Below, piece by piece: positions 1 through 27,372 of a stretch of DNA of 34,371 nt (the first letter of the stretch is position 1; each line of letters starts with the position of its first letter). A model generated the notes under the pieces. It was not told the DNA's origin, ran no database searches, and was given only the letters and a program-made list of their open reading frames with translations. A program made the translations under genes and the position numbers. Origin of the DNA: Prevotellaceae bacterium (GTDB taxonomy: Bacteria > Bacteroidota > Bacteroidia > Bacteroidales > Bacteroidaceae); NCBI GenBank assembly GCA_003150315.1, contig QAML01000065.1:42776-77146 (forward strand), read 5' to 3'.

Positions 1-89
1 AAGGCACTTATTTTAAAACAAGTGCCTTGTATTTTAAAATATATGGCTTGTATTTTTTGCCTTTCCAAATACCTGAAAAACAAGAACCT
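1..89 (-). repeat. Dispersed intergenic palindromic repeat, copy 1 (cut by window edge)
   Basis: Three modules of about 21 bp are visible (AAGGCACTT facing right, then AAGTGCCTT and ATATGGCTT facing left), followed by the constant left arm in reverse orientation (TTTTTTGCCTTTCCAAAT, then CTGAA, ending CAAGAACCT). The other arm lies outside the window. It sits just beyond the 3' end of the minus-strand MFS gene. No other hairpin terminator was found between that gene and this copy, so the copy may end its transcript. Confidence 0.85.
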
Positions 90-166
90 GCAAAACGCGA
101 AAAATTCGCCTTGAAAAAAGGTTTTTCTTGCAGTGTTTTGGTATAGCGAAAGCAGCGAAAAAAGAG

Positions 167-1342
167 CTATTCCTCTATTTTCCGCGTAAGGAAGAACCTG
201 CGCGTTGCGGCAAAGAACAGCACAACTCCTATGGCGTTCACGCCCCAATTCATCCAGAATGCCGCAGAATATCCAAAGCTTCCGCTCACCACGCCTCCAA
301 GCAAAATGCCTATTCCCATGCCCACGCCCCACGACACAAGGATTGAAGAATTTGCCGTTCCCCGTTCGTTGTGGTGCGCCATGCCTACAAACATGTTCAA
401 GAAGGCAGGATAAAGATGTCCGTTGCCCAATCCGAGCAACAATGCCGAAGCATAATAGGAAAACATCGAAGGAAATGCAATGAACATGAAATATGCCACA
501 AGCGATATACACATGCCCTCAGCCGCATTCTGTGTTAGTTTTCCCTGCCTCAAAGCCTTTGCGCCCTGAAGTCGCGAAGCCATGAGACCAATTGAAATAA
601 GCATGAAAAATGTTCCAGTGCCGCCCGTAATGCCAAGCACGTTTTTGCTGTATAAAGCAATGTAGGAGCTGAGCACTCCCCACGAAAAGGCAAAAAACAT
701 GATGTTGAGACTCAGAAGCCAGGCGCGGGTAAGAAAGAAACGGTCGAACGACACCGGACGTTTGTCGGCTTTACGCTCGCGTTTGGGAAGTTCTATGCGC
801 GAAGCCACAAACAGCGCACCGGCTGCTATGAAAAACGAAAGCCAAAAGAGCACCTCGAAACTGTTTACCCATTTATATATGAATACGCCCGCGCTCGGAG
901 CAATTGCCATTGAAAGATTATTGCTCAAGCCGTAGAAGCCCAGTCCCTCGTTTCTTCGCGACGACGGCAGAACGTCTATAGCCGCCGTACTGTTTGCCAC
1001 CGTTACCGCGCCAAAGGGCAGTCCGTGGAGTGTTCTTATTATGGCGAACATCAGGAGCGTTCCGGCTACGGGATAGCCCGCAAAAAACACGAAGAAGAGC
1101 GACAAACTCCACAGCAAAACGCCACGGCGGTCGAAACTGTCAACCACGTATCCGCTGAAAAGCCTTGCCACAATTTCGGCAACCACATATCCCGAAAGCA
1201 CAACGCCTATCATATTGTTTGATGCGCCGAATTGCTCGCTCAAATACAAAGGCAGGAGCGGCGTGAGCAGATAGAACGCGAAATACATCATGAAGTTCAC
1301 GAGCATTACGCGCAGATAATTCTTATTCCATAGTTTCTCCAT
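167..1342 (-). CDS. Major facilitator superfamily transporter
   Basis: A 391-residue inner-membrane protein of the usual MFS size, with about twelve hydrophobic segments in two halves. The loop after the second segment reads GYVVDSFDRR, which fits the MFS motif A pattern (GxxxDxxxR). It probably exports or imports a small solute by proton coupling; the substrate cannot be read from the sequence. The gene has its own TAnnTTTG box only a few bases before the ATG, so its transcript should have almost no leader. It is transcribed alone, away from the PBP gene, and copy 1 of the intergenic repeat follows it. The family is clear but the specific role is unknown. Confidence 0.85.
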   Translation of the reverse strand: MEKLWNKNYLRVMLVNFMMYFAFYLLTPLLPLYLSEQFGASNNMIGVVLSGYVVAEIVARLFSGYVVDSFDRRGVLLWSLSLFFVFFAGYPVAGTLLMFAIIRTLHGLPFGAVTVANSTAAIDVLPSSRRNEGLGFYGLSNNLSMAIAPSAGVFIYKWVNSFEVLFWLSFFIAAGALFVASRIELPKRERKADKRPVSFDRFFLTRAWLLSLNIMFFAFSWGVLSSYIALYSKNVLGITGGTGTFFMLISIGLMASRLQGAKALRQGKLTQNAAEGMCISLVAYFMFIAFPSMFSYYASALLLGLGNGHLYPAFLNMFVGMAHHNERGTANSSILVSWGVGMGIGILLGGVVSGSFGYSAAFWMNWGVNAIGVVLFFAATRRFFLTRKIEE

Positions 1343-1350
1343 AACTTTTG

Positions 1351-1358
1351 CAAAGTTA
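1351..1358 (-). promoter_or_regulatory. Candidate -7 box for the MFS gene
   Basis: The minus strand reads TAACTTTG, a full match to the Bacteroidetes TAnnTTTG box. No good TTTG lies at the usual spacing of about 20 bp upstream. The ATG at 1342 begins 9 nt downstream of the box, implying a leader of only a few bases. Confidence 0.45.
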
Positions 1359-1500
1359 CCGCTTTAACGGCAAAGCACATTGCACGGAGCGAAATTTAAC
1401 GAAGTTTCGGAGCTTCGCCTTTTCGGTGTTCACACCCCGGTTTGCAGAATTTCCGAGTGCCGTTTACCGCCGCCGGAAACGCCTAAAATGTCGCTTTCAA

Positions 1501-1620
1501 AAGTTATTGTTTTCCAGACATTTGAAAAGGCGAAAAATATAAGGCACTTATTTCAAAACATAAGGCACATATTTTAAAATATATGCCTTGTATTTTTTAC
1601 AACAAGCCATGTGTGTTTTT
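1501..1620 (+). repeat. Dispersed intergenic palindromic repeat, copy 2
   Basis: A complete forward copy of about 120 bp. The left arm runs from AAGTTATTG through CAGACATTTGAAAAGG. The modules are AAGGCACTT (right), AAGGCACAT (right) and ATATGCCTT (left). The right arm contains ACAAGCCATGTG followed by T-runs. It lies between the MFS promoter and the terminator of the PBP gene. Confidence 0.9.
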
Positions 1621-1725
1621 CAACGTCCCGCAACAGGAGAAAAACGACGACTCGGATGCGATTTTCAAGGGCATTCCCGACAAAGGCGATACGACCCGCA
1701 AATAAGAGAACGCATGTACATGCCG
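1621..1725. other. Rest of the MFS-PBP intergenic gap
   Basis: The 446-bp gap between the MFS and PBP genes is accounted for by the MFS promoter, a small CGAAA/TTTCG hairpin near 1388-1408, repeat copy 2 and the PBP terminator. I see nothing interpretable in this remaining part. Confidence 0.4.
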
Positions 1726-1762
1726 CAAAAAAGAAATCCGCACGATTTGCACCGTGCGGATT
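1726..1762 (-). terminator. Rho-independent terminator of the PBP1A gene
   Basis: A perfect 10-bp stem (AATCCGCACG at 1735-1744 against CGTGCGGATT at 1753-1762) with an 8-nt loop is followed on the minus strand by TTCTTTTTT. It lies 27 bp past the stop codon. Confidence 0.85.
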
Positions 1763-1788
1763 CTTCCGATATTAGCATTCGGGATTTG

Positions 1789-4284
1789 TCAATTAACGAA
1801 ATCGTCAAAATTAACTTCCCCGTTGTCCTTTTTCTTTTTCTTCTTTTCGCCTGCAGATTCGGCGTTCTTGCTCTCGCCTCCCTCTGCGTGTCCCTCATCC
1901 ATGTGTTCTTCGAGATTAATATCGAATTCCAAGCTGTCTTTTGCCGCCTGAATGGAATCTTTTCTCGCTTTGGAGCGCGGAACATAGTTGCAGGAGTAGC
2001 ATGATGAGGAAATATTTTCCTTTGCTGCGCCGAATTTACGCTGATATTTGGAAAATTGCGAATCGCCAAAGACCGATTGCATGAAATATCCCACAATGGG
2101 CAGCGCGGTACGGCTTCCCTGTCCCAAAGCTCCCGTGCGGAAGTGAATGGAACGGTATTCGCCGCCAACCCAAGCACCTGCCACGAGACCGGGTGTTACT
2201 CCCACAAACCACGCATCGCTATGGTTATTGCTCGTACCCGTTTTGCCGCCGAAATCTGTGGTTTTGCGATACGGTCCGACATAACCTCCGAGCGGCATTG
2301 AAGTACCTCCGGCAAGATTCAAGCCTCCTTGGAGCATTTTCTGCATGAGGAAAGCCGAACGATAAGGTATTGCCTGATGACTTTCTTCGGGAGCGGTATA
2401 AATAACATTGCCACGGCGGTCAACAATCTTGGTTACGAGCACGGGATCTCTCTGACGACCGTCGTCAGCTATGGTGGAATACGCATCAACAAGCTCAAGC
2501 AGGTTGACATCCGAGGCTCCGAGAGCAAGCGAAGGCGTATCGTCGAGCGGAGATTTGATTCCCATTGCGTGAGCAGTCTTTATGATGTTGGAAATGCCCA
2601 CTTCCTGTCCCAATCTGACGGCTATACTGTTTATGCTTTGCGCAAAAGCGGAGAGCAATGGCACACTGTCGCCCGAGAAATTGCCGTTTGCATTGGTTGG
2701 AGTCCAACGTACCATTTCCTTTTTCTTACTGTCGTAAACGTCCATTGCGAAATATTCGTCGCGACGACGGTCGCAGGGCGTAATGCCACGGTTCATGGCT
2801 TCGGTATATACGAAAAGTTTGAAAGTGGAACCCGGCTGGCGCATGGCCGTTACCTTGTCGTATTTCCAAGACTTGAAATCTATGTCGCCAACCCAGGCTT
2901 TGACGTGTCCGCTCTGCGGCTCCATTGCCACAAGACCCGCATGCATGAATTTCACCATGTATCTTATGGAGTCCATGGTGGACATTTCCTCTTCTTTTTT
3001 TCCGTCGTAGTCAAAGAGTTTTACCTTGTGTTTCTGATTAAGATAGAAATTAATCGAATCGGAATTGACACCGTATTTCTGTTCCAGCTCCTTGTACTGC
3101 GCGGTACGCTTGGCGAGATTCTCAATAAAGTTGGGAATGACATTATGATTCTCATCGCGCCACGGATCTTCGTTTCCCCAATGATTACGAAAGTTCCGCT
3201 GCACATTTTTCATCTGTTTCACGAGAGCTTTCTCGGCATATTCCTGCATTTTAAGGTTCAGCGTGGTATAAATCTTGAGTCCTGCGCTGTAAAGGTCTAT
3301 TCCGTTGTCCTTGCACCACTGTTTCAGATAGTCGGCAACGGCTTCGCGGAAGTATAGAGCCTTTCCGTCATAAGCAGTTTCAACTTTGAAATTAAGCTCT
3401 ATGGGAGTTTGTTTCAACGATTCGCATTGTGCCGCCGACATGTGCCCGTGGCTTTGCATATTGTCGAGTACTACGTTGCGGCGTTTCAAACTGTTTTCGG
3501 GATTGGTGCGCGGATTGTAGTAGCTCGTAGCCTTGAGCAGTCCCACAAGTACCGCCGACTGTGTGGCGGTGAGCTTGTCGGGCGTGGTATTGAAGTAAGT
3601 TTTTGCCGCAGTCTTGATGCCGTATGCGTTAGAACCGAAATCCACCGTATTTGCATACATAGTGAGAATTTCGTCTTTGTTGTAGAAAATTTCAAGTTCC
3701 ACTGCAAGCACCCACTCCTTGCTTTTCATTATCAGGATTCGCAGACCGGGAATATATCCGAGCAGACCCGTGGAATACTGGGTGCGCACACGGAACATGT
3801 TCTTGACCAGCTGCTGCGTAATGGTTGAGGCTCCGCGCGCATGACCGCGCATCATGTCCTTGGCTGCTGCGAAAAGTCCCTTGAAATCTATACCGTGGTG
3901 GTGATAGAAACGCTCGTCCTCCGTGTCGATAAGCGCGTGGAAGAAAACGGGATTTATTTCGCCATACTTTACAGGGGTTCGATTTTCGTTGAAATACTTT
4001 CCTATCAGCTGCCCGTCCTCACTATATAGTTCCGAAGCCTGCGAAGTTTCGGGGTGCATTATACTGTGGATTGTGGGAGACTTTCCGAAGAGCCACAGGA
4101 AGTTGAGGTTTACAGCCGTAAAGTAAACAATAAGAAACACAAAAAAGGAAACGATTCCCGCAATGGTCTTGTACCACCACGGACGTCCCTTGAACTGCCT
4201 CTTGTACCACCGTGCGAACTGCAAGAGTTTTGCCTTCAAAAGCAAAAGCAGAGATTTTATTCTGTCGATTGTCTTTTTGTTCAT
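1789..4284 (-). CDS. mrcA: Class A penicillin-binding protein 1A (transglycosylase/transpeptidase)
   Basis: An 831-residue bifunctional peptidoglycan synthase that polymerises lipid II glycans and cross-links the stem peptides in the periplasm. A basic N-terminus precedes one membrane anchor (about residues 40-62). The GT51 domain follows, with EDERFY (catalytic Glu122) and RGASTITQQL (150-159). The transpeptidase domain has SxxK as STFK (Ser486, Lys489), SxN as SIN (550-552) and KTG at 681-683, so both active sites look intact. The C-terminal tail is acidic and contains a run of six lysines (GEKKKKKKDNG). It has its own promoter and terminator, so it appears to be a single-gene unit. The family is certain; ponA and mrcA are alternative symbols. 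Confidence 0.95.
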   Translation of the reverse strand: MNKKTIDRIKSLLLLLKAKLLQFARWYKRQFKGRPWWYKTIAGIVSFFVFLIVYFTAVNLNFLWLFGKSPTIHSIMHPETSQASELYSEDGQLIGKYFNENRTPVKYGEINPVFFHALIDTEDERFYHHHGIDFKGLFAAAKDMMRGHARGASTITQQLVKNMFRVRTQYSTGLLGYIPGLRILIMKSKEWVLAVELEIFYNKDEILTMYANTVDFGSNAYGIKTAAKTYFNTTPDKLTATQSAVLVGLLKATSYYNPRTNPENSLKRRNVVLDNMQSHGHMSAAQCESLKQTPIELNFKVETAYDGKALYFREAVADYLKQWCKDNGIDLYSAGLKIYTTLNLKMQEYAEKALVKQMKNVQRNFRNHWGNEDPWRDENHNVIPNFIENLAKRTAQYKELEQKYGVNSDSINFYLNQKHKVKLFDYDGKKEEEMSTMDSIRYMVKFMHAGLVAMEPQSGHVKAWVGDIDFKSWKYDKVTAMRQPGSTFKLFVYTEAMNRGITPCDRRRDEYFAMDVYDSKKKEMVRWTPTNANGNFSGDSVPLLSAFAQSINSIAVRLGQEVGISNIIKTAHAMGIKSPLDDTPSLALGASDVNLLELVDAYSTIADDGRQRDPVLVTKIVDRRGNVIYTAPEESHQAIPYRSAFLMQKMLQGGLNLAGGTSMPLGGYVGPYRKTTDFGGKTGTSNNHSDAWFVGVTPGLVAGAWVGGEYRSIHFRTGALGQGSRTALPIVGYFMQSVFGDSQFSKYQRKFGAAKENISSSCYSCNYVPRSKARKDSIQAAKDSLEFDINLEEHMDEGHAEGGESKNAESAGEKKKKKKDNGEVNFDDFVN

Positions 4285-4328
4285 TTACATCTATTTTTTG
4301 CTATGTATTTCATAGCGTTTCACTACTG

Positions 4329-4360
4329 CAAAAGTAGTAATTTCAGCCTTGACGAAAGTT
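4329..4360 (-). promoter_or_regulatory. Promoter of the PBP1A gene
   Basis: The minus strand has TACTTTTG (4336-4329), an exact TAnnTTTG box, with a weaker TTTC about 18 bp upstream. It is placed 45 nt before the ATG. Confidence 0.6.
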
Positions 4361-4470
4361 TGTTTGCCCATAAAAATTGCTTAAAGCCATGCGAATAAGC
4401 ATTTGCGTTCGAAAAATGATTACCGGCATGACAATAAACAGAAGAAAAAAGTGAAGTTTCGGGACATGTG

Positions 4471-4589
4471 AAAAAACACATGGCTTGTTGCGAAAAACAT
4501 AAGGCATATATTTTAAAATACAAGGCACTTATTTTAAAATAAGTGCCTTGTATTTTTTGCCTTTCCAAATCCCTGAACCACAACAACTT
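4471..4589 (-). repeat. Dispersed intergenic palindromic repeat, copy 3
   Basis: A complete copy in reverse orientation. It reads ACACATGGCTTGTTGCG (right arm reversed), modules AAGGCATAT and AAGGCACTT facing right and AAGTGCCTT facing left, then TTTTTTGCCTTTCCAAAT and CAACAACTT (left arm reversed). Relative to its arms the middle module is inverted compared with copy 2. It fills the 368-bp gap between the PBP promoter and the end of miaA. No separate hairpin terminator of good quality was found for miaA, so this copy may serve. Confidence 0.9.
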
Positions 4590-4652
4590 ACAAAAACTCA
4601 GAGAAAAGCCTTAACTTTTTGGTTCTTAGGTAGTTAAGAAAAACGCCGTCAT

Positions 4653-5576
4653 TTAGCGCACTGCGGGCACGGATTTCGATTTTATATACTCGACTATCGA
4701 GTCAAAATCGTCGGGACCGAACCAAGTCATTTCCTCGTCGCGCTTGTACCATGTGAGCTGTTTTTTGGCATAAACGCGAGTATTCTTTTTCATCCTCTCA
4801 ATGGCTACGGGCAATGTCATTTCGCCGTCGAAATATTTGAACATTTCGTTATATCCCACGGTGTTCAGTGCCGTCAGTCCCCGCTGCGGATAAAGTTCCC
4901 GTGCCTCGTCAACAAGTCCCTCAGCTATCATTTTGTCCACACGACCGTTTATGCGTTCGAAAAGTCGGGGGCGCGGAATGTTGAGTCCTATCTTAATGAT
5001 GTTAAAAGGGCGCGGCTTGCAGGCGCGAACGCGAAACGAAGTGTAAGTCCTGCCAGTGGAATGACATATTTCAAGAGCATGGAGCACGCGGCGCGGATTT
5101 TTCAAATCGACAATGGCATGATATTCGGGATCAAGCCTTTTCAGTTCATCGCCAAGGGCTTCCAGTCCCTCTGATTCGAGACGTTGCTTCATCTCCGCGC
5201 GTATATCGTCGGGCACAGTGGGGATGTCGTCAATGCCTTTTACCACGGCATCGACATACATCATGCTTCCGCCCGAAAGAATTACGTAGTCGCTGGTGCG
5301 AAACAGCTCGGCGAGAAGGCGCAGAGCGTCCTGCTCATAACGAGCCGCACTGTAATAATCGGTAATAGAGAGATTGCCTACAAAGTAAAAACGAGCCTGC
5401 GCAAGTTCTGCCTCATCGGGTCGCGCCGTGCCTATTTTCATTTCGCGATATACCTGACGGGAATCGGCATTTACGATTGGGGCGGAAAACAAGTGGGCAA
5501 GACGGATGCACAAATCCGTCTTGCCCACTGCTGTTGGTCCTGTTATGACTATGAGATTAGCCAATGGAAAAATCAA
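4653..5576 (-). CDS. miaA: tRNA dimethylallyltransferase
   Basis: A 307-residue enzyme that transfers a dimethylallyl group to A37 of tRNAs reading UNN codons. The P-loop is GPTAVGKT (residues 13-20), followed by DSRQVYREMKIGTARP, a family signature. Total length matches the family. The ATG overlaps the stop of the preceding pRiA4b-like gene by 4 nt, which suggests translational coupling, and the gene is the last of the lipid A operon starting with lpxD. Its presence with lipid A genes seems to be one of convenience rather than shared function (inference). Confidence 0.95.
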   Translation of the reverse strand: MIFPLANLIVITGPTAVGKTDLCIRLAHLFSAPIVNADSRQVYREMKIGTARPDEAELAQARFYFVGNLSITDYYSAARYEQDALRLLAELFRTSDYVILSGGSMMYVDAVVKGIDDIPTVPDDIRAEMKQRLESEGLEALGDELKRLDPEYHAIVDLKNPRRVLHALEICHSTGRTYTSFRVRACKPRPFNIIKIGLNIPRPRLFERINGRVDKMIAEGLVDEARELYPQRGLTALNTVGYNEMFKYFDGEMTLPVAIERMKKNTRVYAKKQLTWYKRDEEMTWFGPDDFDSIVEYIKSKSVPAVR

Positions 5577-6148
5577 AACCTTCCGTCGTCGCCGGAGTCG
5601 AGAGGTCCGTCGCTGATGTCGAGACCTTCGTTGCTGAAATCGTCGTCATTGAAACCCTCCGAACCGTAAAAACTTTCGTCTGCAAAGTTTTCGTCGGTCT
5701 GCTGCGGCTTTGCCCCCTTCTTGGCAGGCTTTTCTTCTACAAGAATCTCTGCCGGAGCATCGCCGATGGAGCGTGTGATTTGCGCCTTCTTGAGATTCTT
5801 TCCGGGAATCATCTCTTTGAGTTCAATGTAGAACGCACGGTTGTTGAAAGTATCGAAGATGAATTTCAAACGCATGGGAACATCGTCGAGCAAACTGCGC
5901 AGCGAGGTTTTGTCCATAGTGTAAACGTCCTCGTCATAAGGCGTAAAGCCCATATCCTCACGTGTTATCTCGCATTGCTTCTCCCACTCGTCGTTTGTGA
6001 TATAGAAGCTCGTAACCTGATCGTCCTCGTAGTTGCACGAAGCAAGTATTGCCTCGCAGAAATCGAGAAATGTGGAATCTGCGTCAATCTTTATCTCGCG
6101 CAGGAACTCGTCAACCTCATCGCTTATGATTGTAAATCGGAATAACAT
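5573..6148 (-). CDS. pRiA4b ORF-3-like (IS1096 passenger TnpR-type) protein
   Basis: A 191-residue protein. Residues 1-120 resemble the pRiA4b ORF-3-like fold: an N-terminal beta strand (FRFTIISDEVDEF), a helix with FLDFCEAILAS, then a strand near VTSFYITNDEW. Despite the family name there is no sign of a transposon here. From about residue 135 the chain becomes a low-complexity tail, first Lys-rich (KPAKKGAKP) and then strongly Asp/Glu/Gly-rich and probably disordered. The gene sits 33 bp after lpxA and overlaps miaA by 4 nt, so it is a fixed member of the lipid A operon. Its biochemical function is unknown and nothing seen here supports transposase activity. Confidence 0.75.
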   Translation of the reverse strand: MLFRFTIISDEVDEFLREIKIDADSTFLDFCEAILASCNYEDDQVTSFYITNDEWEKQCEITREDMGFTPYDEDVYTMDKTSLRSLLDDVPMRLKFIFDTFNNRAFYIELKEMIPGKNLKKAQITRSIGDAPAEILVEEKPAKKGAKPQQTDENFADESFYGSEGFNDDDFSNEGLDISDGPLDSGDDGRF

Positions 6149-6181
6149 GATTGCTATTATTTATCTCGCGGGCGTTTATAT

Positions 6182-11162: not shown

Positions 11163-11202
11163 ACCGAAAGCCGGACTCCTGCGAGTCCGGCTTTCGGTTT
11201 TT
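11163..11202 (+). terminator. Rho-independent terminator of the purF-like gene
   Basis: A perfect 16-bp stem (11163-11178 against 11183-11198, ACCGAAAGCCGGACTC and its complement) with the 4-nt loop CTGC runs into TTTTT. It begins 23 bp after the stop codon. Confidence 0.92.
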
Positions 11203-11340
11203 ATGCCCGCTAAAACCGCACGCCACAAGCCGCATGACTCCCTGCGCAACGACAATGCTTTCGATAGAAAAACGCGAGATTTGTGCATTTTTACAACATT
11301 CTGAAAATCACCTTTTTACAGCAAAACAGAAGACTTTTAT

Positions 11341-11460
11341 AAGTTCTTGTGTTTCAGACATTTGAAAAGGTCAAAAATATAAGGCATATATTTTAAAATA
11401 AGTGCCTTGTATTTTAAAATACATGGCTTGTATTTTTTGCGATAAGCCATGTGTTTTTTC
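11341..11460 (+). repeat. Dispersed intergenic palindromic repeat, copy 4
   Basis: A complete 120-bp forward copy. The left arm is AAGTTCTTG through CAGACATTTGAAAAGG. The modules are AAGGCATAT (right), AAGTGCCTT (left) and ACATGGCTT (left), and the right arm contains GATAAGCCATGTG. It lies in the 400-bp gap between the convergent purF-like and alaS genes, outside both of their own terminators. The third module and right arm form an extra ACATGGCTT/AAGCCATGT pair. The remainder of the gap (11203-11340) shows nothing else. Confidence 0.9.
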
Positions 11461-11479
11461 GGCTAACGCCCGGGGCATG

Positions 11480-11513
11480 AAAAAAGTTCCGCATCATTTT
11501 GCTGACGCGGGAC
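11480..11513 (-). terminator. Rho-independent terminator of alaS
   Basis: The minus strand has an 11-bp stem with one mismatch and one G-T pair (11513-11503 against 11496-11486, loop GCAAAA), followed by six T (11485-11480). It lies 28 bp after the alaS stop. Confidence 0.8.
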
Positions 11514-14601: not shown

Positions 14602-15279
14602 ACCGAACGCATAAAAACCGCGTCCGCACCGCGCACATTCGAACACACAACCCGATATCTTTCCACCGCAAGGCATTCCTTTGGGAGTACATGATACACG
14701 TTTCCATAAAAACGAAACGCGCAAGTTTCTTAATACCTTTCTTTACGGGGCACACCTCACAAATCCCCAAACGTTCCGTTTATTAATTTCATTCAGCCTC
14801 TTTTCGCAATAAATTTTCGGGAACTTGCACCCCCTGCTCGCCTTTCCTTTGGGGTAACCCGGCACATACTACCAAACCCAACGGACTTGTACTCTAAGGC
14901 ACGTCTTTTCTTATGGAGCTTGTTGCACATGTCCCGAAACGCAGATAACCAATAATCAATCATAAGCCATTTCTCATAAAACACAATGCAAACGCTCCTG
15001 CACATGTTGAACTTGCAAGTTCCCGTAGCACCTTACTAATGACACATACCCCATATTTCCCATGACGGATGTATTCTACATCAAACGGCAAGGTACTTAA
15101 CTTGGGGGGGGTACATCAACATGTTTAGGAACTTTCCTTTCGCATTTTTCCGCATACCGCATATAGCATAACACTTTTAAGAGACCTGTAAAAATGAGAG
15201 TATGTGAAGGCTAACAACGTGCCGTTTTCAGACACCGCTTCCCTCAAAAAATTCAACGCTTTCAAGACCTGTTTTTACA
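14602..15279 (-). repeat. Gene-free stretch with decayed repeats
   Basis: No credible gene. Read on the minus strand, loosely similar blocks recur at intervals of about 100-195 bp. They share a GCCTTG/GCCTTA start, a purine-rich middle with GGGT and TATGTG, then AAGG and an end like ACTTGCAAGTT (visible near 14668, 14724, 14822-14896 and 15015-15090). Translated fragments resemble each other weakly (RNALRWKDIG and RRALEYKSVG). A run of eight G lies at 15104-15111. This looks like eroded repetitive or formerly coding DNA. The similarity was judged by eye. Confidence 0.4.
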
Positions 15280-15391
15280 GACATGGGATGTAAGAAAAAA
15301 TATAAGGCACATATTTTAAAATACAAGGCACTTATTTTAAAATAAGTGCCTTGTATTTTTCGGCATTCCAACTGTCTGAAATCCAATATCG
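15280..15391 (-). repeat. Dispersed intergenic palindromic repeat, copy 5
   Basis: A reverse-oriented copy: AAGGCACAT and AAGGCACTT facing right, AAGTGCCTT facing left, then TTTTTCGGCATTCCAACTG and CTGAAA (left arm reversed). The arm on the other side (ACATGGGATGTAAG) departs from the usual AAGCCATGTG form and resembles copy 7 instead. It ends about 13 bp beyond the terminator of the neighbouring lipoprotein gene. Confidence 0.85.
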
Positions 15392-15403
15392 TTTTTCGGG
15401 CTT

Positions 15404-15446
15404 TATAAAACAAGTCTTCCCCGGGCAAAATATGCCCGGGGAAGAC
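15404..15446 (-). terminator. Terminator of the SusC/SusD locus
   Basis: A perfect 13-bp GC-rich stem (15414-15426 against 15434-15446, containing CCCCGGGC) with a 7-nt AT loop is followed on the minus strand by TTGTTTTAT. A second small hairpin, TTGTAAT/ATTACAA at 15453-15469, lies between it and the stop codon. Confidence 0.8.
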
Positions 15447-15475
15447 CTTATTTTGTAATGTTATTACAATCTCTA

Positions 15476-21200: not shown

Positions 21201-21464
21201 GCTTTTTACCGGGAGCACCTGTGCTTCCATTCCTATGAACGAGAAACGAAGCTGTTTTGCAGATGCGGGAAGGTTTGAAAGCGTGAAGCGACCGTCTGCA
21301 TCGGTATTCACACCGATTGTGGTTCCGGGAACGCTGACACTAACGCCAATCAACGGCTCGCCGTTGTCTGCGGAAGTTACGTGTCCGGTTACGGTCTTGA
21401 CTTGAGCGTTTACGAGGAGGCAAGTGAAAGCTCCCAATAAAAGCATCATCAATTTTTTACCCAT
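18279..21464 (-). CDS. SusC/RagA-family TonB-dependent outer-membrane transporter
   Basis: A 1061-residue receptor. The signal peptide ends at VNA-Q (residue 20). A carboxypeptidase-regulatory-like domain follows (about 24-95, GHVTSADNGEPLIGVSV and GVNTDADGRFTLSNLP). A TonB-box-like VVVTALGIKR comes at 104-113 and the plug domain at about 115-235 (NIMQGLQGKIAGVSI, VIIRGFSS, PLYVIDGVPM). The rest is the 22-strand barrel, ending in FNIKISF with the expected terminal Phe. It is the first gene of the four-gene locus. The leader is long, about 170 nt. No sensor, sigma/anti-sigma pair or enzyme is encoded beside it, so the ligand and its control are open. Confidence 0.95.
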   Translation of the reverse strand: MGKKLMMLLLGAFTCLLVNAQVKTVTGHVTSADNGEPLIGVSVSVPGTTIGVNTDADGRFTLSNLPASAKQLRFSFIGMEAQVLPVKSVMNVSLKSNDKMLGGVVVTALGIKRSEKSLGYSATSVNTEDLVETRNANIMQGLQGKIAGVSISNNSDPGSTNSVIIRGFSSLAKTNQPLYVIDGVPMSNEAMQSTDALNHNYDFGSGANAINPDDVENMTVLKGAAATALYGSRAANGVIMITTKKGKKRDKGVGITYNGGIQFSNVARLVEMQNRFGQGASGEHVAIENGSWGPRFDGLEKVYGYVYDNSQRVKSYKAIKNNVRDFFDTGVMFNNSVSLDGATDKSNFFVSLSNINNNGVYPTRSDAYNKYTFTSNGSYTVNNKLTFSSSLSYSYQKNNFVSTGQKLNPIFSLYNVPRDISITAQKDLSNPFNTPGYYYTPYNATNPYYILKNYLDEAEMDKLWGKFQADYNIFDFLKFTYRVGMDYTIHKTRNGIPNMSVLWAGTPNWDNNSEISSQTGWVYTMDRKERLIDQDFMLNFSKPIDEDFNLNAILGLNTHERKLSIASQEVSSLDIPTWFNTANSGSTPAVVDKFYHSRLIGAYGQVEGSWKDMVFLNVTARNDWSSTLPKAERSYFYPGITGSFIFTELIPQDLKDIISFGKVRVAWGKTGNDAEWYSTQNVYAQAGADGSGFGEIDFPLGGLNAFTLSNIMGNNKLKPEMTTEWEFGLNMAFFRNRLSFDFAYYNRSTNNQTLAMNLDAGTGFTRRYVNIGEITNKGVELLVQGTPIKTRDWQWDLNMNWTLNRSKVVSLPKDFGKEIVIFGFSGGTSLYAVKGKPLGVYKDQRLERDPEGHVVVAANTGLPVKSDKYEYCGDMNHKYTLGWGTTIRWKDISLTANMEARVGGKMYTRTKGNVFFTGIAKQTVYNDRKPFIVPNSVNKVTADDGSVSYVENTTALDYNYIQSYWADQYDCDASNLVSRGFVKLRDVAVTWNLPKKWIDKTFLTGASVSFFGRNLLMWTPSDNTFVDPENTSVSGDLGAMFGEYGANPSTRSYGFNIKISF

Positions 21465-21639
21465 AATCTTACTTTTTAGATTAAACTTAGTTATTTGTAT
21501 TGTTTATTATATGTATAATCTCTTATGATTGCGATAACGTTTTTTACAGTCTGTTCACGACTTACGGTCGCACATATACATTATTATATATAAACTGCCG
21601 TCAATTTCAACTTTACCTTGGCTACTTCATACATTTTTG

Positions 21640-21647
21640 CAAAAGTA
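21640..21647 (-). promoter_or_regulatory. Candidate -7 box of the susC operon
   Basis: The minus strand reads TACTTTTG, an exact TAnnTTTG box; a TTTG stands 17 bp upstream, a little closer than usual. Predicted start near 21635, implying a leader of about 170 nt before the susC ATG. Confidence 0.55.
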
Positions 21648-21659
21648 GAAAATTCTTTT

Positions 21660-22102
21660 AACTGCAAAAAGATTCCATTATGTTATTTTTACAGGGTGTA
21701 AACAGGTACTTTTCTTCGTTTTTTAACAAAACGGCAATGCTTTATGCCGTTTTTCCCAATTATTTCCATTTCGTTTCGAATTTCAAACTAAAATCGGGAT
21801 GTAAAAAAGACAAAACGATAAAATGTTAAAATTTCGCCGATATTTTCTCCGTGCAGAATTTTTTTATTTGCAACTTTTTATTTTGTCAGATTTACTTTAC
21901 ATTTCTTTTATTCTTGTTAACCAAACGTTCTAACCGCTTGCGTGTGCTTTGACCCGTGTTTCCGCCGGCATTTCCGGGCATAAAACAGCGCGACACTCCC
22001 ATCCCGCCCATCACATCCGGCACACCGCCGCCGGAGACTCGCATAACGGTTTGAAAACACGGCTTAAAAACGGCAAAAAACACCTCAAAAACGTCGTTTT
22101 AC
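21660..22102. other. Gene-free stretch upstream of the susC promoter
   Basis: The first half is very AT-rich. The second (about 21950-22060) is unusually GC-rich for an intergenic stretch, with many CCG and GCC triplets. Short open frames exist on both strands, but they have no start signals or recognisable protein and I do not call a gene. Together with copy 6, the argD terminator and the susC leader this accounts for the 906-bp gap between argD and susC. Confidence 0.4.
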
Positions 22103-22223
22103 AAGTTACTGTTTTTCAGATGTTTGAAAACGTCAAAAATACAAGGCACTTATTTTAAAATACAAGGCACTTATTTTAAAATATGTGCCTTGTATTTTTT
22201 ACGATAAGCCATGTGTGTTTTTT
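22103..22223 (+). repeat. Dispersed intergenic palindromic repeat, copy 6
   Basis: A complete forward copy of about 121 bp: left arm AAGTTACTG through CAGATGTTTGAAAACG, modules AAGGCACTT (right), AAGGCACTT (right) and ATGTGCCTT (left), and a right arm with GATAAGCCATGTGTG. The first two modules are identical direct repeats 21 bp apart. It lies 62 bp beyond the argD terminator. Confidence 0.9.
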
Positions 22224-22284
22224 GCACAATACATATCGTTGTGAAAAAACTCCCGATCTCGGAAAAAATCCGCCCATTGAGTGC

Positions 22285-22324
22285 AAAAAACAACCCGCAC
22301 ATTTCGGTTAAGAAGCGTGCGGGT
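22285..22324 (-). terminator. Rho-independent terminator of the arginine operon
   Basis: A perfect 8-bp GC-rich stem (ACCCGCAC at 22293-22300 against GTGCGGGT at 22317-22324) with a 16-nt loop is followed on the minus strand by TGTTTTTT. It lies 47 bp past the argD stop. Confidence 0.75.
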
Positions 22325-22370
22325 CGCAAACGTAATAATTCTGTGTAGTTATAAATGGATTTGCTATGGT

Positions 22371-23501
22371 CTAAAACTTGACAAGAGCATTTTTAAGACG
22401 TTCCACGAAATCGTCGGCCTGCCCTGTGGTGAGGCAGAGAGGCGGCAACAGACGCAGGATGTTTGTTCCCGCTCCGCCGGTAAACACGCGCTGCTCGAAA
22501 ATAAGGTTCTTTCGCAATTCCTTAACGGGTTTGTCGAATTCAAGACCTATCATCAGTCCGCGTCCGCGTATATCTTTTATTTCCTCTATCTCCCTGCAGC
22601 GGTCCATGATATGCTCTCCAACCTCTGCAGCATTGCTCACGAGTTTTTCGTTCTCTATTACGTCGAGCACGGCAAGCGCGGCAACACATGCCAAATGGTT
22701 TCCGCCGAACGTTGTGCCGAGCATTCCGTAAACAGGTTTGAATTTCGGTGAAATCAAAAGCCCTCCCATGGGAAATCCGCAGGCTATGCCTTTGGCAACG
22801 GTTATAAGGTCGGGCTTGACATCGAGATACTGGTGGGCAAAGAACTTTCCGCTTCGTCCGTAGCCGCATTGCACTTCGTCGCAAACAAGCACCGTGTTGT
22901 GCTCGTCGCATGCCTTGCGCACCGCCTGCATAAATTCTTTGTTTGCCAAATGTATTCCGCCCACACCTTGTATGCACTCCACAATCACGGCACAGACATC
23001 GCCTTTGGCTATCTCGCTTACAAATGCCTCGGTGTCGTTGAGCGGAAGGAAGGTAACATGACTGTTTTTGTTGATGGGCGCATTGATTTTGGGGTTATCG
23101 GTAGCTTCCACCGCAAGCGATGTACGTCCGTGAAAAGCTCCCGCAGAAGCAATCACTCTTGTGCGTCCGTTGTAAAACGAAGCAAGCTTTAGCGCGTTTT
23201 CGTTGGCTTCCGCTCCCGAGTTGATAAGAAACAGCGAATAGTCTTCGTAGCCCGAGGCTTTGCCCAAGCGTTCCGCAAACTCGGTTTGCAAATGGTTTTG
23301 CACCGAATTGGAATAAAATCCGAGACGATTGAGCTGACGACTCACACATTCTATATAATGAGGATGGCAGTGTCCGATACTTATCACGGCATGTCCGCCG
23401 TAAAGGTCAAGATACTTGTTGTCGTCGGCATCCCAAACGTTGCATCCGCGTCCGCGAACTATTTCTACATCATATAATGGAAAAACGTCAAATGGTTTCA
23501 T
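22371..23501 (-). CDS. argD: Acetylornithine (or succinylornithine) aminotransferase
   Basis: A 376-residue class III PLP aminotransferase that converts N-acylglutamate semialdehyde to N-acylornithine. Visible are the dimer and substrate region LDLYGGHAVISIGHCHP, the PLP phosphate contact NSGAEANENALKLA, Asp208 in VLVCDEVQ that pairs with the pyridine nitrogen, and the Schiff-base Lys237 in VAKGIACGFPMGG. Bacteroidetes are known to use succinylated rather than acetylated intermediates in this pathway, so the acyl group is uncertain. Last gene of the operon, 15 bp after argC; no proC gene follows it here, as it does, to my recollection, in Bacteroides. Confidence 0.93.
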   Translation of the reverse strand: MKPFDVFPLYDVEIVRGRGCNVWDADDNKYLDLYGGHAVISIGHCHPHYIECVSRQLNRLGFYSNSVQNHLQTEFAERLGKASGYEDYSLFLINSGAEANENALKLASFYNGRTRVIASAGAFHGRTSLAVEATDNPKINAPINKNSHVTFLPLNDTEAFVSEIAKGDVCAVIVECIQGVGGIHLANKEFMQAVRKACDEHNTVLVCDEVQCGYGRSGKFFAHQYLDVKPDLITVAKGIACGFPMGGLLISPKFKPVYGMLGTTFGGNHLACVAALAVLDVIENEKLVSNAAEVGEHIMDRCREIEEIKDIRGRGLMIGLEFDKPVKELRKNLIFEQRVFTGGAGTNILRLLPPLCLTTGQADDFVERLKNALVKF

Positions 23502-23516
23502 TGTTGAATTTGTTTT

Positions 23517-24482
23517 TTAGAAAGCCGCAGCCTTCAGTTTAAGTCCCGCATCCTCGGCAATGCCGAACATGATGTTCATATTCTCCACTGCCTGACCCGC
23601 AGCACCCTTCAAAAGATTGTCGATGACCGACGTAACGAGCAGACGGTCGCCATATTTTTGAGCATGAACAAGTGCGCGGTTGGTGTTGACCACTTGTTTC
23701 AAGTCAATGTCGCGAGACACGTAGTGGGTGAACGGTTCTCCTGCATACATCGAGTAACATTTGTCGATTTCTTCCTGCGACAATCCGGTGCGCATGAAGA
23801 CGGTGGTGAAAATGCCGCGCGCAAAGTCGCCGCGATAAGGCACAAAATCCAAATCTCCTCCGAAATCGGGTTGAAATTCTCTGATGCTTTGGTTTATTTC
23901 AAGCAAATGCTGATGAGTGAACACCTTGTAAACGCTCATGTTTCCGTTGCGCCAACTGAAATGTGTGGTGGGCTGCGGTTTTACTCCCGCACCGGTGCTG
24001 CCTGTTATGGCATTGATCACAACATCTCCCTTCAAGACTCCCGCCTTAGCCAGCGGCAGCAGCGCGAGTTGTATGCAGGTGGCAAAACATCCCGGATTGG
24101 CTACGTGTTGTGCCTTGGCTATGAGAGAGCGATGGGTTTCGGGCAAACCATAAACGTAATCGTTTCCCGGAGCTGCTATTCTGAAATCCTGAGCAAAGTC
24201 TATGATTTTTACGTTCGCGGGCACGGGATTGTTTTTAAGGAATTCCTCACTCTTGCCATGCCCCAGGCAGATAAACAAAACGTCAATCTTTTCAAACGGA
24301 AGCTCGTCGGTGAATCGAAAATCGGTATCTCCGAGCAAACCTTCATGGACATCCGAGAAAAGATTTCCCGCATTGCTCCCCGAATTGGCGAAAACAATCT
24401 CCGCCTGCGGGTGATTGAGCAAAACTCTTATAAGTTCGCCCGCCGCATAACCCGCCGCGCCTACAATTCCTACCTTTATCAT
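23517..24482 (-). CDS. argC: N-acyl-gamma-glutamyl-phosphate reductase
   Basis: A 321-residue NADPH-dependent enzyme of arginine synthesis. The Rossmann start is MIKVGIVGAAGYAAGE. The catalytic Cys is Cys132 in VANPGCFATCIQLAL, with the conserved TGSTGAGVKP and later HQHLLEINQ, where the active-site His of the family lies. I take the ATG at 24482, seven bases after the argG stop, because family members begin MIKVGI; an ATG at 24503 would overlap argG by 14 nt and add MNVGNQR. Tight spacing suggests coupled translation with argG. Confidence 0.94.
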   Translation of the reverse strand: MIKVGIVGAAGYAAGELIRVLLNHPQAEIVFANSGSNAGNLFSDVHEGLLGDTDFRFTDELPFEKIDVLFICLGHGKSEEFLKNNPVPANVKIIDFAQDFRIAAPGNDYVYGLPETHRSLIAKAQHVANPGCFATCIQLALLPLAKAGVLKGDVVINAITGSTGAGVKPQPTTHFSWRNGNMSVYKVFTHQHLLEINQSIREFQPDFGGDLDFVPYRGDFARGIFTTVFMRTGLSQEEIDKCYSMYAGEPFTHYVSRDIDLKQVVNTNRALVHAQKYGDRLLVTSVIDNLLKGAAGQAVENMNIMFGIAEDAGLKLKAAAF

Positions 24483-24489
24483 ACGCTGA

Positions 24490-25695
24490 TTACCGACGTT
24501 CATCCTTATGTTTGGAATAATATATGCGCAAAGGCGTGGATGTTACCTTTATGAAGCCTTTTGCCTCTTCGGAAGTCCAACCTTTTTGAGTTTCTCCATA
24601 CTCTCCGAACGGATTCTTTACCAAATCGTCTTTGGAATCCACCCCTACGGTTTCGAAAGAATAGGGACGAAGCTTAAGAGTTACCACACCGTTCACATTA
24701 CGCTGCGAAGAAGTGAGCATGGCTTCTATATCGGTCATCACAGGTTCCATGTACTGGCTCTCATGCAGGAACATGCCGTACCAATTCGACACCTGGTCTT
24801 TCCAATACTGCTGCCATTTCGAAAGAGTGTACTTTTCGAGGAAACGGTGTGCCCCGATTATCAGCATAGGTGCGGCAGCTTCAAAACCAACACGCCCTTT
24901 GAGTCCCACGATAGTGTCGCCCACATGACAATCACGCCCTATGGCATAAGCAGCACCTATCTTTTCTATTTCCTGAATGGCTTTGATTTTATCGTCATAC
25001 TCTTTACCGTCCACGCTTGCTATTTCGCCGTTCTTGAAACCTATTTTCAATTCTCTTTCTCCCTCGGCGGTGGCATGTTTTAGGTAAGCCGATTCGGGAA
25101 GTCCCTGATTGCTGTCGAGAATTTCGCCTCCGCAAATCGAAGTTCCCCATATACCCACGTTGTAGGAGTATTTTAGTTTTGCGAAATCGGCTTTGAAACC
25201 GTGGTCGTTGAGATAATCTATTTCTTCTTTGCGCGTAAGCACGCGATCACGAGTGAGGGTGATGATTTCCTTACCCGGAGCCATCACGAGAAAAGTCATG
25301 TCGAAACGAATCTGGTCGTTGCCGGCACCCGTGGAACCGTGAGCTATAGCGTCTGCTCCCACTTCGTTGGCGTAACGTGCTATTGCTATTGCCTGGAAAA
25401 TCCTTTCGCTCGAAACCGATATGGGATAGCAATTATTGCGAAGCACATTGCCGAAAACCATATACTTCAAACTTTTTTCGTAATACTCCTGCGTTACATC
25501 GAGAGTTACATATTTTGTTGCGCCGAGCTTATATGCGTTTTTTTCATTGGCTTCCAGCTGCTCCTTACTGAAGCCGCCGGTGTTGGCACAAGCCGCATAA
25601 ACTTCGTAACCCAGTTCGTGCGAAAGATACATCACCGTGTATGAAGTGTCAAGCCCGCCACTGTAGGCAACAACCACTTTCTTTTTCTTTTCCAT
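24490..25695 (-). CDS. argG: Argininosuccinate synthase
   Basis: A 401-residue enzyme joining citrulline and aspartate with ATP. The ATP pyrophosphatase P-loop AYSGGLDTSY is right at the N-terminus (residues 9-18), and AIAHGSTGAGNDQIRFD is the conserved ATP/citrulline region. The frame stays open upstream to 25854, but that extension (Arg- and Cys-rich) overlaps the preceding GNAT gene and does not look like protein, so the start is the ATG at 25695 (MEKKKKVVVAYSGG). The gene follows the GNAT gene by 38 bp. Confidence 0.94.
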   Translation of the reverse strand: MEKKKKVVVAYSGGLDTSYTVMYLSHELGYEVYAACANTGGFSKEQLEANEKNAYKLGATKYVTLDVTQEYYEKSLKYMVFGNVLRNNCYPISVSSERIFQAIAIARYANEVGADAIAHGSTGAGNDQIRFDMTFLVMAPGKEIITLTRDRVLTRKEEIDYLNDHGFKADFAKLKYSYNVGIWGTSICGGEILDSNQGLPESAYLKHATAEGERELKIGFKNGEIASVDGKEYDDKIKAIQEIEKIGAAYAIGRDCHVGDTIVGLKGRVGFEAAAPMLIIGAHRFLEKYTLSKWQQYWKDQVSNWYGMFLHESQYMEPVMTDIEAMLTSSQRNVNGVVTLKLRPYSFETVGVDSKDDLVKNPFGEYGETQKGWTSEEAKGFIKVTSTPLRIYYSKHKDERR

Positions 25696-25733
25696 TGCTT
25701 TATATGATGTTTTTATTATTGCGTTGTTAGTTT

Positions 25734-26372
25734 TTATCTCAATCCTTTTGCAGCAGCATCCTTTGCCATTTTCACCACATCGGGCGGAAGTTGCACGGGA
25801 AGCGGTTCTCCTTCGTGGTCGGCGGGATCGTAGAGCATTCCGGTACACACACAATATTTCCTGCCTGTGCGCGCAAGAATATCACAATTGATGCAGCAGG
25901 GATGATCGGGCGTTCCGCAGCCCTTCCAATACTCGTCGTCCTGCGTAAGATCGCAAAGCGGCACGGGAACATAGCCGAGTTTCGTATTTATCTTCATCAC
26001 CGCGCCCTGACTTGTCAATCCGAAAAGCTTTGCATGAGGCCAGCGCAGACGGCTGAGCGTGAAGGCAGTTTCCTTGATGCGTGTGGCAAGGTGATGCTGC
26101 CTGAACTTCGGAACTACAATGAGTCCGGAATTTGCCACATAGTGTTTGTCTTCCCAGCTTTCTATATAGCAAAAACCGGCAAACTCTTCTCCGTGGAGAG
26201 CTATTATGGCTTTTCGTTCGCGCATCTTCTGCGCCACGTATTCATGGGTTCTTGAAGCTATTCCCGAGCCGCGCACTTTTGCTGCATCGGCTATTGTCTT
26301 CAATATGGTGTCCACATACTTTTCATGAGACGCATCGGCAACCAACACGTCTATACCATCATTGTAAGTCAT
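25734..26372 (-). CDS. GNAT-fold acyltransferase of the arginine operon, candidate acylglutamate synthase
   Basis: A 212-residue protein. Residues 1-145 have a GNAT acyltransferase shape: AIIALHGEEFAGFCYIES, then strand 4 VANSGLIVVPKFRQHHLATR, where RQHHLA stands at the acyl-CoA phosphate loop (R/Q-x-x-G-x-A) with His in place of Gly. The C-terminal 65 residues carry six cysteines (152, 159, 160, 163, 174, 176; GCGTPDHPCCINC and KYCVCTG), a pattern suited to metal binding. The operon has no argA or argJ, so this is the natural candidate for the first step, acylation of glutamate. I recall genetic evidence for such a role in the B. thetaiotaomicron orthologue, but could not check it. Acyl donor unknown. 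Confidence 0.75.
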   Translation of the reverse strand: MTYNDGIDVLVADASHEKYVDTILKTIADAAKVRGSGIASRTHEYVAQKMRERKAIIALHGEEFAGFCYIESWEDKHYVANSGLIVVPKFRQHHLATRIKETAFTLSRLRWPHAKLFGLTSQGAVMKINTKLGYVPVPLCDLTQDDEYWKGCGTPDHPCCINCDILARTGRKYCVCTGMLYDPADHEGEPLPVQLPPDVVKMAKDAAAKGLR

Positions 26373-26423
26373 TTCCTGTTCGTAATGTATAAAAACCTAC
26401 TATCCGTTCCTTTCACCCGTTTC

Positions 26424-26909
26424 TCAAAGATTCGCCACTATCTGCGGGAGAATCTCTTTGAGATCGGCAGCCATTTCTTCGCAGGAACTTCCTTTTTTTC
26501 CTATCACCATCACGGTGTCATCGCCTGCAAGCGTAGCGGCAATATGGGGGAAATGTTTGTTGTCTATGGTTCCCGCCAAAGCAGCAGCAAAGCCGGGAAT
26601 GGTATGCAGGATTATTGTCTTTCCGCCCTCCTCGTTGTTGAGCAGACATTCCTCGAGCGAAACATTGTTTCCCGTACTCTTGCGCATGGCATGTGTATAG
26701 TTGGGATTGTTAGGCAATATATATATCACCTGTCCGAACTGGGTGGTAATACGTATGGCACGCAGATGTTGCAAGTCGCGCGAAAGCGTTGCCTGAGTGG
26801 AACCGTGCCCCACGGCTTTCAGTTCTTCGAGCAGTTCTTCCTGACTGCTGATGTTTTTGTCGTTCAAGATTTTACGAATGAACCCCAAACGAACTTCTTT
26901 TTCTTTCAT
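26424..26909 (-). CDS. argR: Arginine repressor
   Basis: A 161-residue regulator. The N-terminal winged helix (residues 6-65) includes SSQEELLEELKAVG and STQATLSRDLQHL, the ArgR recognition region. The C-terminal hexamerisation and arginine-binding domain has TIPGFAAALAGTID and LAGDDTVMVIGK, with Asp130 and Asp131 in the arginine-contact position. Length is standard. As first gene of the operon it probably controls its own transcription and that of the genes behind it in response to arginine. Clustered TGAAT half-sites upstream are candidate operators. The GNAT gene follows after 51 bp. Confidence 0.95.
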   Translation of the reverse strand: MKEKEVRLGFIRKILNDKNISSQEELLEELKAVGHGSTQATLSRDLQHLRAIRITTQFGQVIYILPNNPNYTHAMRKSTGNNVSLEECLLNNEEGGKTIILHTIPGFAAALAGTIDNKHFPHIAATLAGDDTVMVIGKKGSSCEEMAADLKEILPQIVANL

Positions 26910-26934
26910 TCTTTCTGTTTGATTTTTCGAATTG

Positions 26935-26965
26935 CAAAAGTACTGCGTTTTTTCATAGCGAACAA
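26935..26965 (-). promoter_or_regulatory. Promoter of the arginine operon
   Basis: On the minus strand TTG (26965-26963), 20 bp, then TACTTTTG (26942-26935). Predicted start near 26930, about 20 nt before the argR ATG. Confidence 0.7.
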
Positions 26966-27002
26966 GTTTTTATACAAAAATCTTTGCATAAAAACATTTT
27001 CT

Positions 27003-27028
27003 ATTCACCCTTTATTCAAAAAGATTCA
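27003..27028 (-). promoter_or_regulatory. Candidate ArgR half-site triplet
   Basis: Three TGAAT half-sites on the minus strand (27003-27007, 27014-27018, 27024-27028) are repeated at steps of 11 and 10 bp, one helical turn. The E. coli ARG box uses the same TGAAT half-site, but as an inverted pair. The triplet is about 40 bp upstream of the argR promoter. Confidence 0.45.
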
Positions 27029-27122
27029 AATTCCGCATTTTCAAAATCTCCACTCAACTCTACATTTATTTTTCTGATAATCAGATAACATATAGCCACA
27101 AAAAGATTACCACACGCCACAA

Positions 27123-27183
27123 ATTCAACACGGAACTCAAATGAATTATTTTTGAATATACACAATTTTTCTTGCAATATTCA
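27123..27183. promoter_or_regulatory. Further TGAAT half-sites between argR and the lipoprotein gene
   Basis: TGAAT occurs on the plus strand at 27142-27146 and 27153-27157 (11 bp apart), and on the minus strand at 27123-27127 and 27179-27183. A separate 13-bp palindrome (TCTGATAATCAGA) is at 27073-27085. The sites fall in the 632-bp gap between argR and the lipoprotein gene. Which gene they serve, if any, is not clear. Confidence 0.35.
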
Positions 27184-27269
27184 CATTTTTCAAATTCCGA
27201 GGCACGGCAGCTAAAAAACAGACGCAAAAACACCACATTTCAAGGCAAATTTTCGACCCTTTCCCGCAC

Positions 27270-27372
27270 ATTGTTTTTCAAGCACTTAACACGCTCAAAA
27301 ATACAAGGCACTTATTTTAAAACATAAGGCACATATTTTAAAATAAGTGCCTTGTATTTTTCATTACATGCG
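27270..27372 (+). repeat. Dispersed intergenic palindromic repeat, copy 7
   Basis: A forward copy with weakened arms: ATTGTTTTTCAAGCACTT on the left; modules AAGGCACTT (right), AAGGCACAT (right) and AAGTGCCTT (left); TTTTTCATTACATGCGG on the right. It lies between the divergent argR and lipoprotein genes, where no transcript is expected to end. Confidence 0.8.

Follow-up and report, generated by a model that had tools for sequence, protein, structure and literature searches.

A dispersed intergenic repeat built on a 21-bp ladder of 13-bp modules in a Prevotellaceae genome and in related genomes

What is the sequence of about 120 bp that recurs between the genes of a Prevotellaceae bacterium? 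A 34,371-nucleotide stretch of contig QAML01000065.1 (hereafter the window, at its full length) carries seven intergenic copies of this non-coding repeat, one per 4.9 kb. An earlier, sequence-only reading of the window took them for a dispersed unit resembling repetitive extragenic palindromes (REPs) or miniature inverted-repeat transposable elements (MITEs), or else a structured RNA or a protein site. The repeat is dispersed within genomes and lies between genes; its modules keep a fixed register, with fixed outer and free middle orientation, their sequence is specific to each genome, and at one locus the element is absent from relatives. We see about an even chance that it is a non-autonomous DNA repeat that spreads into intergenic spacers and whose modules are recognition sites for a putative protein.

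The core of the element consists of three 13-bp modules (consensus TAYAAGGCACNTA) set in a strict 21-bp register by 8-bp AT spacers. The spacer is TTTTAAAA in every window slot except one, and it is palindromic in most of them. In the six complete copies the module in slot 1 always points forward and that in slot 3 always backward (6/6 each), while slot 2 is forward in three copies and reversed in three. Thus, the three 21-bp modules described by the sequence-only reading hold their register in all copies but are not uniformly directed, the order being + (+ or -) -. Copy length is nearly constant in the window and the arms are variable. The left-arm AAGTT, which had been given for every copy, occurs in four of the seven and is missing from copies 1 (AGGTT), 5, and 7; the block AAGCCATGTG, likewise thought uniform, is present in four of the six complete copies and absent from copies 5 and 7; it keeps to the 21-bp register, where it forms a weak fourth module.

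Four copies lie on the plus strand. Copy 2 (1483–1621; modules 1538–1592, ++-) is located between the PBP1a and MFS genes, copy 4 (11330–11463; modules 11378–11432, +--) between the convergent purF-like gene and alaS, copy 6 (22089–22222; modules 22140–22194, ++-) downstream of argD and upstream of a SusC-like gene, and copy 7 (27249–27380; modules 27302–27356, ++-) in the space that separates the divergent argR (minus) and lipoprotein-like (plus) genes. On the minus strand, copy 1 (1–107) is cut by the window edge and retains the left arm and modules ++-, the third of which is cut, downstream of the MFS gene (167–1342, minus). Copy 3 (4468–4602; modules 4498–4552, +--) sits between miaA and PBP1a, and copy 5 (15279–15400; modules 15301–15355, +--) between the convergent merR-like and Lipid_bd genes; each of these two contains a 42-bp perfect palindrome.

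The ladder stands far above chance. Allowing up to three mismatches, AAGGCACTTATTTTAAAA matched the window 21 times, three times per copy, against a mean of 0.08 (standard deviation 0.27) in 100 dinucleotide shuffles. A test that assumes no module sequence and looks for three 13-mers linked at one period found seven arrays at 21 bp and none at 15–20 or 22–29 bp. Direct repeats gave the same answer, with seven places at a distance of 21 bp, none at 20, 22, or 42 bp, and an average of 0.13 (maximum 2) at the remaining distances between 14 and 62 bp. These three tests, together with homologues or look-alikes in other genomes, bear out the earlier view of a dispersed unit at seven places and not chance AT-rich palindromes.

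A search of relatives, as the earlier reading had proposed, uncovered related ladders outside the window. Window AlaS is 74% identical to that of its best match, an uncultured Bacteroidales genome (G001), and 71–73% identical to that of Prevotellamassilia timonensis. Among 150 relatives of G001, four contained the window word with one base changed, and one genome alone (G087) contained two such words; the ladder was recognised on reading these two near-match places. G087 is not very close to the window, with identities of 87% for lpxC, 80% for the purF-like gene, 75% for lpxD, and 60% for miaA. It gave 81 one-module matches versus six for the backwards pattern. With the window's seven copies excluded, 76 non-overlapping profile places at E<1e-4 and 69 at E<1e-6 were found in 480 kb of G087, a sample of 40 stretches each picked for a module match; 17 G087 copies had seeded the profile and some of the 76 places are partial. 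A profile built from 57 G087 rows alone gave a list of nine places that includes six of the seven window copies (best E 2.1e-13), and a profile of six window rows found G087 copies with a best E of 9.5e-19 and 19 matches below 1e-6, some of them both strands of one place. Reversed-sequence controls of both searches gave nothing below 1e-3.

The G087 modules fall into four classes (AGGCAC, TTTGAG, TAGGAC, and AAGGAG) that are mixed among the slots. Of 57 near-complete rows, 56 have a plus module in slot 1 and 56 a minus module in slot 3; in slot 2, 43 rows have a minus module, 10 a plus module, and four an unclassed one. The middle 13-mer is inverted in place between matching spacers in 12 pairs of G087 copies, all of which involve the flipped copies in loci L128 and L129. 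An inverted pair agreeing at 10 or more of 13 positions is present in 41 of the 57 rows versus 31.5 when slots are permuted; four of 2000 permutations reached the observed 41, with shared ancestry not removed. Several G087 copies occur in tandem about 230 bp apart (L131, L143, L154, L153, L123, and L142), a number of them near contig ends. G087 also carries a separate intergenic repeat of GCATGACAGCTGCGATGCAT-like units of about 22 bp (L133 540–650 and L156 10180–10290).

To other genomes we applied a sequence-only model (R1) of 57 G087 and six window rows, which includes a forced alignment of the left arms discussed below and, being built on these copies, can miss other dialects. At E<=0.001 it matched 20 of the 150 relatives of G001. 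Counts were at least 21 in G087, 21 in G012, 18 in G026, eight in G051, seven in G050, and five in G027, and four or fewer in the others; they are lower bounds because only the best 8 to 21 candidates per genome were scored, and a place matched on both strands is often counted twice. By eye, 39 of 40 places inspected in G012, G026, G027, G051, G042, G050, and G039 have between two and five modules that keep the 21-bp register; the remaining one (L290) is cut by a contig end and shows no ladder. This inspection left out the low-count matches in G019, G020, G021, G022, G043, G048, G052, G056, and G059. Across 200 relatives of G087, R1 matched five genomes, and inspection bore out two of them, G087 and G180; across 393 genomes of the order it matched seven, each once. 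Single matches in G130, G147, G148, G321, G361, G402, and G496 were taken as chance, and inspection of the first three revealed no ladder; two loose pattern matches (G178 and G113) were excluded from the counts.

Eight genomes besides G087, namely the seven inspected and G180, thus carry ladders, each with its own module sequence. The module is TATTAGTAACATA in G012, where 20 copies are near-uniform and a left block resembles that of G087; it is TATAAGGGAGATA or TAAGTCCGACATA in G026, TACATCGGATGTA in G027, and TATCTCGGAGATA in G051, and the ladders of G050, G039, and G042 use further distinct sequences. In G180, a 12-bp word has 71 exact matches spread over the genome and, with one mismatch, 127 + 136 matches versus 32 + 38 for the backwards pattern. 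Aligned from 16 copies, the G180 element is about 285 bp long; its ends are AT-rich and inverted, its five modules keep the register, and it contains two GTAACT...TCA-like blocks and ends in TTTATTATATAAAAA (L226–L254). What these genomes appear by eye to share with the window is geometry. The module being a dialect, exact-word search is the wrong tool for the ladder: the exact window 21-mer had no match in 84,980 species genomes, nor a 20-mer in viral contigs. One G087 copy found no blastn match among plasmids or phages, and one window copy, compared with plasmids, gave a single weak match that covers 25% of its length, to a Nicoliella plasmid, which we took as chance. Separately, a motif resembling the G087/G012 left block, TTTGTAACTAWNTGAWWWTCAG, occurs in 33 viral stretches (L192–L224, many near-identical; backwards control 0), and in all of them except L196 it reads TGATWATCAG.

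The same period recurs in these genomes. Direct-repeat places at 21 bp number seven in the window, 49 in G087, 25 in G012, 15 in G180, seven in G026, five in G039, four each in G051 and G050, three in G042, two in G027, and one in G021. At 20 bp there are none or one per genome, and at 22 bp 27 in G087, two in G027, one in G042, and none in the others. In the stretches fetched from G012, G180, G026, G039, G051, G050, and G042, 21 bp is the most frequent distance, and in G027 it ties with 22 bp (2 vs 2). The relatives' peaks are partly built in because the stretches were chosen by module or R1 matches, which does not apply to the window. The idea that a 21-bp ladder is a general Bacteroidales trait found no support, as 80 alaS-region loci yielded four noncoding 21-bp arrays, three of them low-complexity-looking. 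Among periods of 15–35 bp in these 80 loci, 22 bp is the commonest, followed by 21 bp with its four arrays; 12 of the loci hold 17 noncoding 22-bp tandem arrays, all but one of which are purely direct (for example L048 13049 and 22397, L073 19253, and L034 12692).

Is the element ever absent where it might stand? The earlier reading had proposed comparing orthologous gaps, and the miaA–PBP1a gap, home of copy 3, allowed it. A miaA match was present in 29 of 30 genomes searched, and in 12 PBP1a came next within the fetched flank. The gap measures -32 to 152 bp in these 12 relatives and 368 bp in the window; none of the 12 has the ladder, and their best 13-mer agreement at a distance of 21 bp is 6–9/13, versus 13/13 in the window. 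G087, rich in copies elsewhere, is among the 12. Since the gap is empty in every one of them, the simplest account is that copy 3 was gained in the window's lineage. In G180 another gene follows miaA, and the downstream spacer holds what by eye appears to be a worn ladder of its own dialect. The alaS side offered no such comparison, the purF-like/alaS neighbourhood being kept in none of 80 loci.

In the reading that we prefer, the working part would be the ladder of asymmetric 13-bp sites 21 bp, or two helical turns, apart, a spacing that would put adjacent sites on the same face of the DNA. With the outer sites opposed and the middle one either way, every such element would contain at least one opposed pair, able to form a hairpin or cruciform if both members are of one class. 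Recognition by a protein is suggested because the register and the outer orientation are fixed, the middle is free, and the word changes between genomes at constant spacing. We infer a sequence-specific protein, either a mobilising enzyme or a DNA binder, that would read the modules on one DNA face, perhaps that of an extruded hairpin. Each lineage's dialect would then track its reading protein as REPs track their associated tyrosine transposase (RAYT); the element would be spread by a putative mover, and copies would persist where harmless. The possible protein site of the earlier reading is in this way part of ours. Two known systems are close to the element in some respects. The tyrosine-recombinase sites lox and FRT have 13-bp arms around an 8-bp spacer, FRT with an extra 13-bp arm; their geometry is like that of the window element, whose spacer TTTTAAAA is, however, palindromic and which has many copies per genome and direct as well as inverted pairs. 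The DNA uptake sequences of Neisseria form dialects as well, their short words being lineage-specific and frequently paired in inverted orientation downstream of genes, whereas the ladder has fewer copies and a fixed multi-unit plan.

Several observations weigh against this account. The copy census for the source organism comes from the 34-kb window only. The G087 alignment covers 57 of the 76 places and omits partial places and exceptions, the latter including one copy with four modules (L124), one with two (L134 7812), and one in the order +++ (L125 16609). According to a simple caller of open reading frames (ORFs), seven of 69 G087 copies lie inside an ORF (none of 22 in G012 and none of 16 in G180). 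For the window left arm, five copies match G087 at E 0.001–0.08 and the other two at about 2 (best reversed control 2.4), always on the strand opposite to the alignment, and the right arm is not significant (0.083 versus 0.075 for the reversed control). The forward alignment of the two left arms was therefore rejected as forced by the aligner. Because this independent test places the weak match on the opposite strand, we claim homology for the core and not the arms; the window and G087 would share core and geometry. The empty-site evidence is one locus in distant relatives (PBP1a 54–73%). Target-site duplications (TSDs) were found neither in the window (flank score 12 in six copies versus a permuted mean of 10.8) nor in G012 (24 in 20 copies versus 28.3), and the G180 score of 36 in 16 copies equals the permuted maximum. 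Terminal inverted repeats (TIRs), scored as left flank against the reverse complement of the right, beat shuffles at p<0.05 in just two of the six complete window copies, and no mobilising gene was found. Finally, longer units with different ends enclose the G180 copies and some of those in G087, and what moves may therefore be something other than the 120-bp block. The longer G087 unit, bounded by GTCCGGTAAAC / GTTTACCGGAC, encloses a second left-arm-like block and other hairpins (L125 12591–13042; L142 to 8619; upstream ends in L153, L136, L139, and L145).

The position of the copies raises a different explanation. No window copy overlaps a Pfam-supported gene (nine adjoining genes scanned), in agreement with the placement first reported, and the few predicted ORFs that overlap copies are taken as spurious. 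Up to position 27542 our reading of the gene map gives eight gaps of more than 150 bp, counting the first one, which is cut, and seven of them contain a copy; the divergent lpxD/purF-like gap has none. There is also no copy in the last 196 bp after the final operon (34175), where a hairpin and T-run were read by eye and were not listed by the terminator scan. Six of the seven copies adjoin a gene 3' end. The copies could accordingly be bidirectional intrinsic terminators, with A-tract, stem, and T-tract on both strands, kept at transcription-unit ends and copied genome-wide. Copies 2, 3, and 7 do score terminator-like on one strand each, and a two-module G051 copy (L300) resembles a textbook hairpin with a T-tract. 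We nevertheless consider this unlikely, for separate terminator-like hairpins stand between stop codon and element at three to four gene ends: 16 pairs after the purF-like gene (11163–11198, plus) before copy 4, 13 pairs after PBP1a (1734–1763, minus) before copy 2, 16 pairs after Lipid_bd (15412–15448, minus) before copy 5, and a weaker eight pairs after alaS (11489–11510, minus) before copy 4, all outside the element. With 29 such sites found by the scan where shuffles would give 21.3, the weight falls on the long stems alone. Copy 7 lies in a divergent gap, typed from Pfam since the ORF caller missed argR, and by eye the G180 modules have no T-tract. By the simple ORF caller, divergent gaps make up 1/19 of those occupied in G012 (versus 5/24 unoccupied gaps of at least 150 bp), which speaks for terminators, and 6/15 in G180 and 6/38 in G087, which speaks against them, a weak gap-type bias that is not exclusive. 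The structured small RNA or cis-acting RNA element considered by the sequence-only reading fares worst, and we give it hardly any credence. Single copies fold well (z -6.3, -6.9, and -3.3 for three window copies), against which a search of Rfam was negative for the window (gathering score) and for four G087 loci (E<=1), some copies sit beyond the genes' own terminator-like hairpins, slot 2 flips, and RNAalifold found no shared pairs over 63 rows, a weak test given mixed slot classes and the forced arm alignment.

The likeness to MITEs and REPs noted earlier holds as a likeness and fails as membership. The element is short, non-coding, and multi-copy, and its size, intergenic position, and copy number suit a classical MITE moved by the DDE transposase of a genomic insertion sequence (IS); the AT-rich inverted ends over about 285 bp of the 16-copy G180 consensus and the bounded G087 units point the same way. 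The missing TSDs of the window and G012, the inconsistent TIRs of the window, and G180 ends unlike those of G087 make it improbable. REP or REPIN elements copied by a RAYT (a Y1 HUH transposase) are likewise short inverted units, intergenic, numerous, and genome-specific in sequence, and the inverted pair is there, in the order + x - in all six complete window copies; this origin is very doubtful even so. The RAYT family PF01797 occurs in three of 12 genomes with R1 matches (two of eight with inspected ladders) versus nine of 14 without, in drafts that may miss genes. The single PF01797 locus of G087 (1,972 bp) contains no module, its second frame being presumably TnpB, and the GTAG tag is in none of the seven window copies on either strand, with CGTC in one (copy 6, twice). 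The copies might also be sites on the chromosome at which a cellular regulator or a nucleoid protein binds and which selection maintains, and the two-turn register, the density of one copy per 4.9 kb, and the spread of the 12-bp word over G180 would fit. This is quite unlikely in view of modules that differ among related genomes and of R1 matches in 20/150, 5/200, and 7/393 genomes, many weak or single, with the reservation that R1 may miss dialects. The searches made returned no match to a described repeat family; such a match is what the sequence-only reading had named as fatal to it. As to the other finding so named, a genome-wide search showing these copies alone, related ladders exist in other genomes. 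Among the closest known systems, and alike in plan, is the BrickBuilt MITE of Porphyromonas gingivalis, which is intergenic and composed of leader, repeated units, and tail, with 19 copies in one strain (PMC4596501). Its 23-nt direct repeats number 1 to 22.8 per copy, some copies have IS5-like TIRs, it also occurs in P. gulae, and a rho-independent terminator precedes one described copy (PMC4596501, PMC10969869). The window element resembles BrickBuilt in its Bacteroidales host, intergenic position, general plan, and, for some copies, a preceding terminator-like hairpin, and differs in its three 21-bp units, mixed orientation, near-constant length, and lack of a consistent TIR; 23-nt direct tandem repeats are absent from the window, with seven arrays at 21 bp and none at 23. 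REPs, bacterial interspersed mosaic elements (BIMEs), and REPINs with their RAYTs are short palindromic extragenic units, inverted, lineage-specific, and present in many copies (PMC3733652, PMC6006769), whereas the window element has neither GTAG tag nor RAYT association and follows a fixed 21-bp ladder of usually three units. For a Bacteroidetes subclass, 2.6, 'atypical secondary structures' are reported (PMC6006769).

If the preferred reading of a protein-read, dispersed DNA repeat is right, the element may go further and represent an undescribed class: a two-turn ladder whose 13-bp sites can be exchanged and inverted, whose sequence each lineage rewrites throughout its genome at constant geometry, and whose driver would be a protein other than a RAYT or an ordinary IS transposase. 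We propose this tentatively, as a possibility well short of even. A narrow search of the open-access literature returned no description of such a ladder in Bacteroidales. Ladder hairpins are open to misreading as terminators or small RNAs, which calls for caution. Should the modules be read by a protein, each genome would offer a natural set of site dialects from which specificity and the responsible gene could be traced, as REPs led to RAYTs, and the element would account for much of the intergenic DNA in the window and in some of its relatives.

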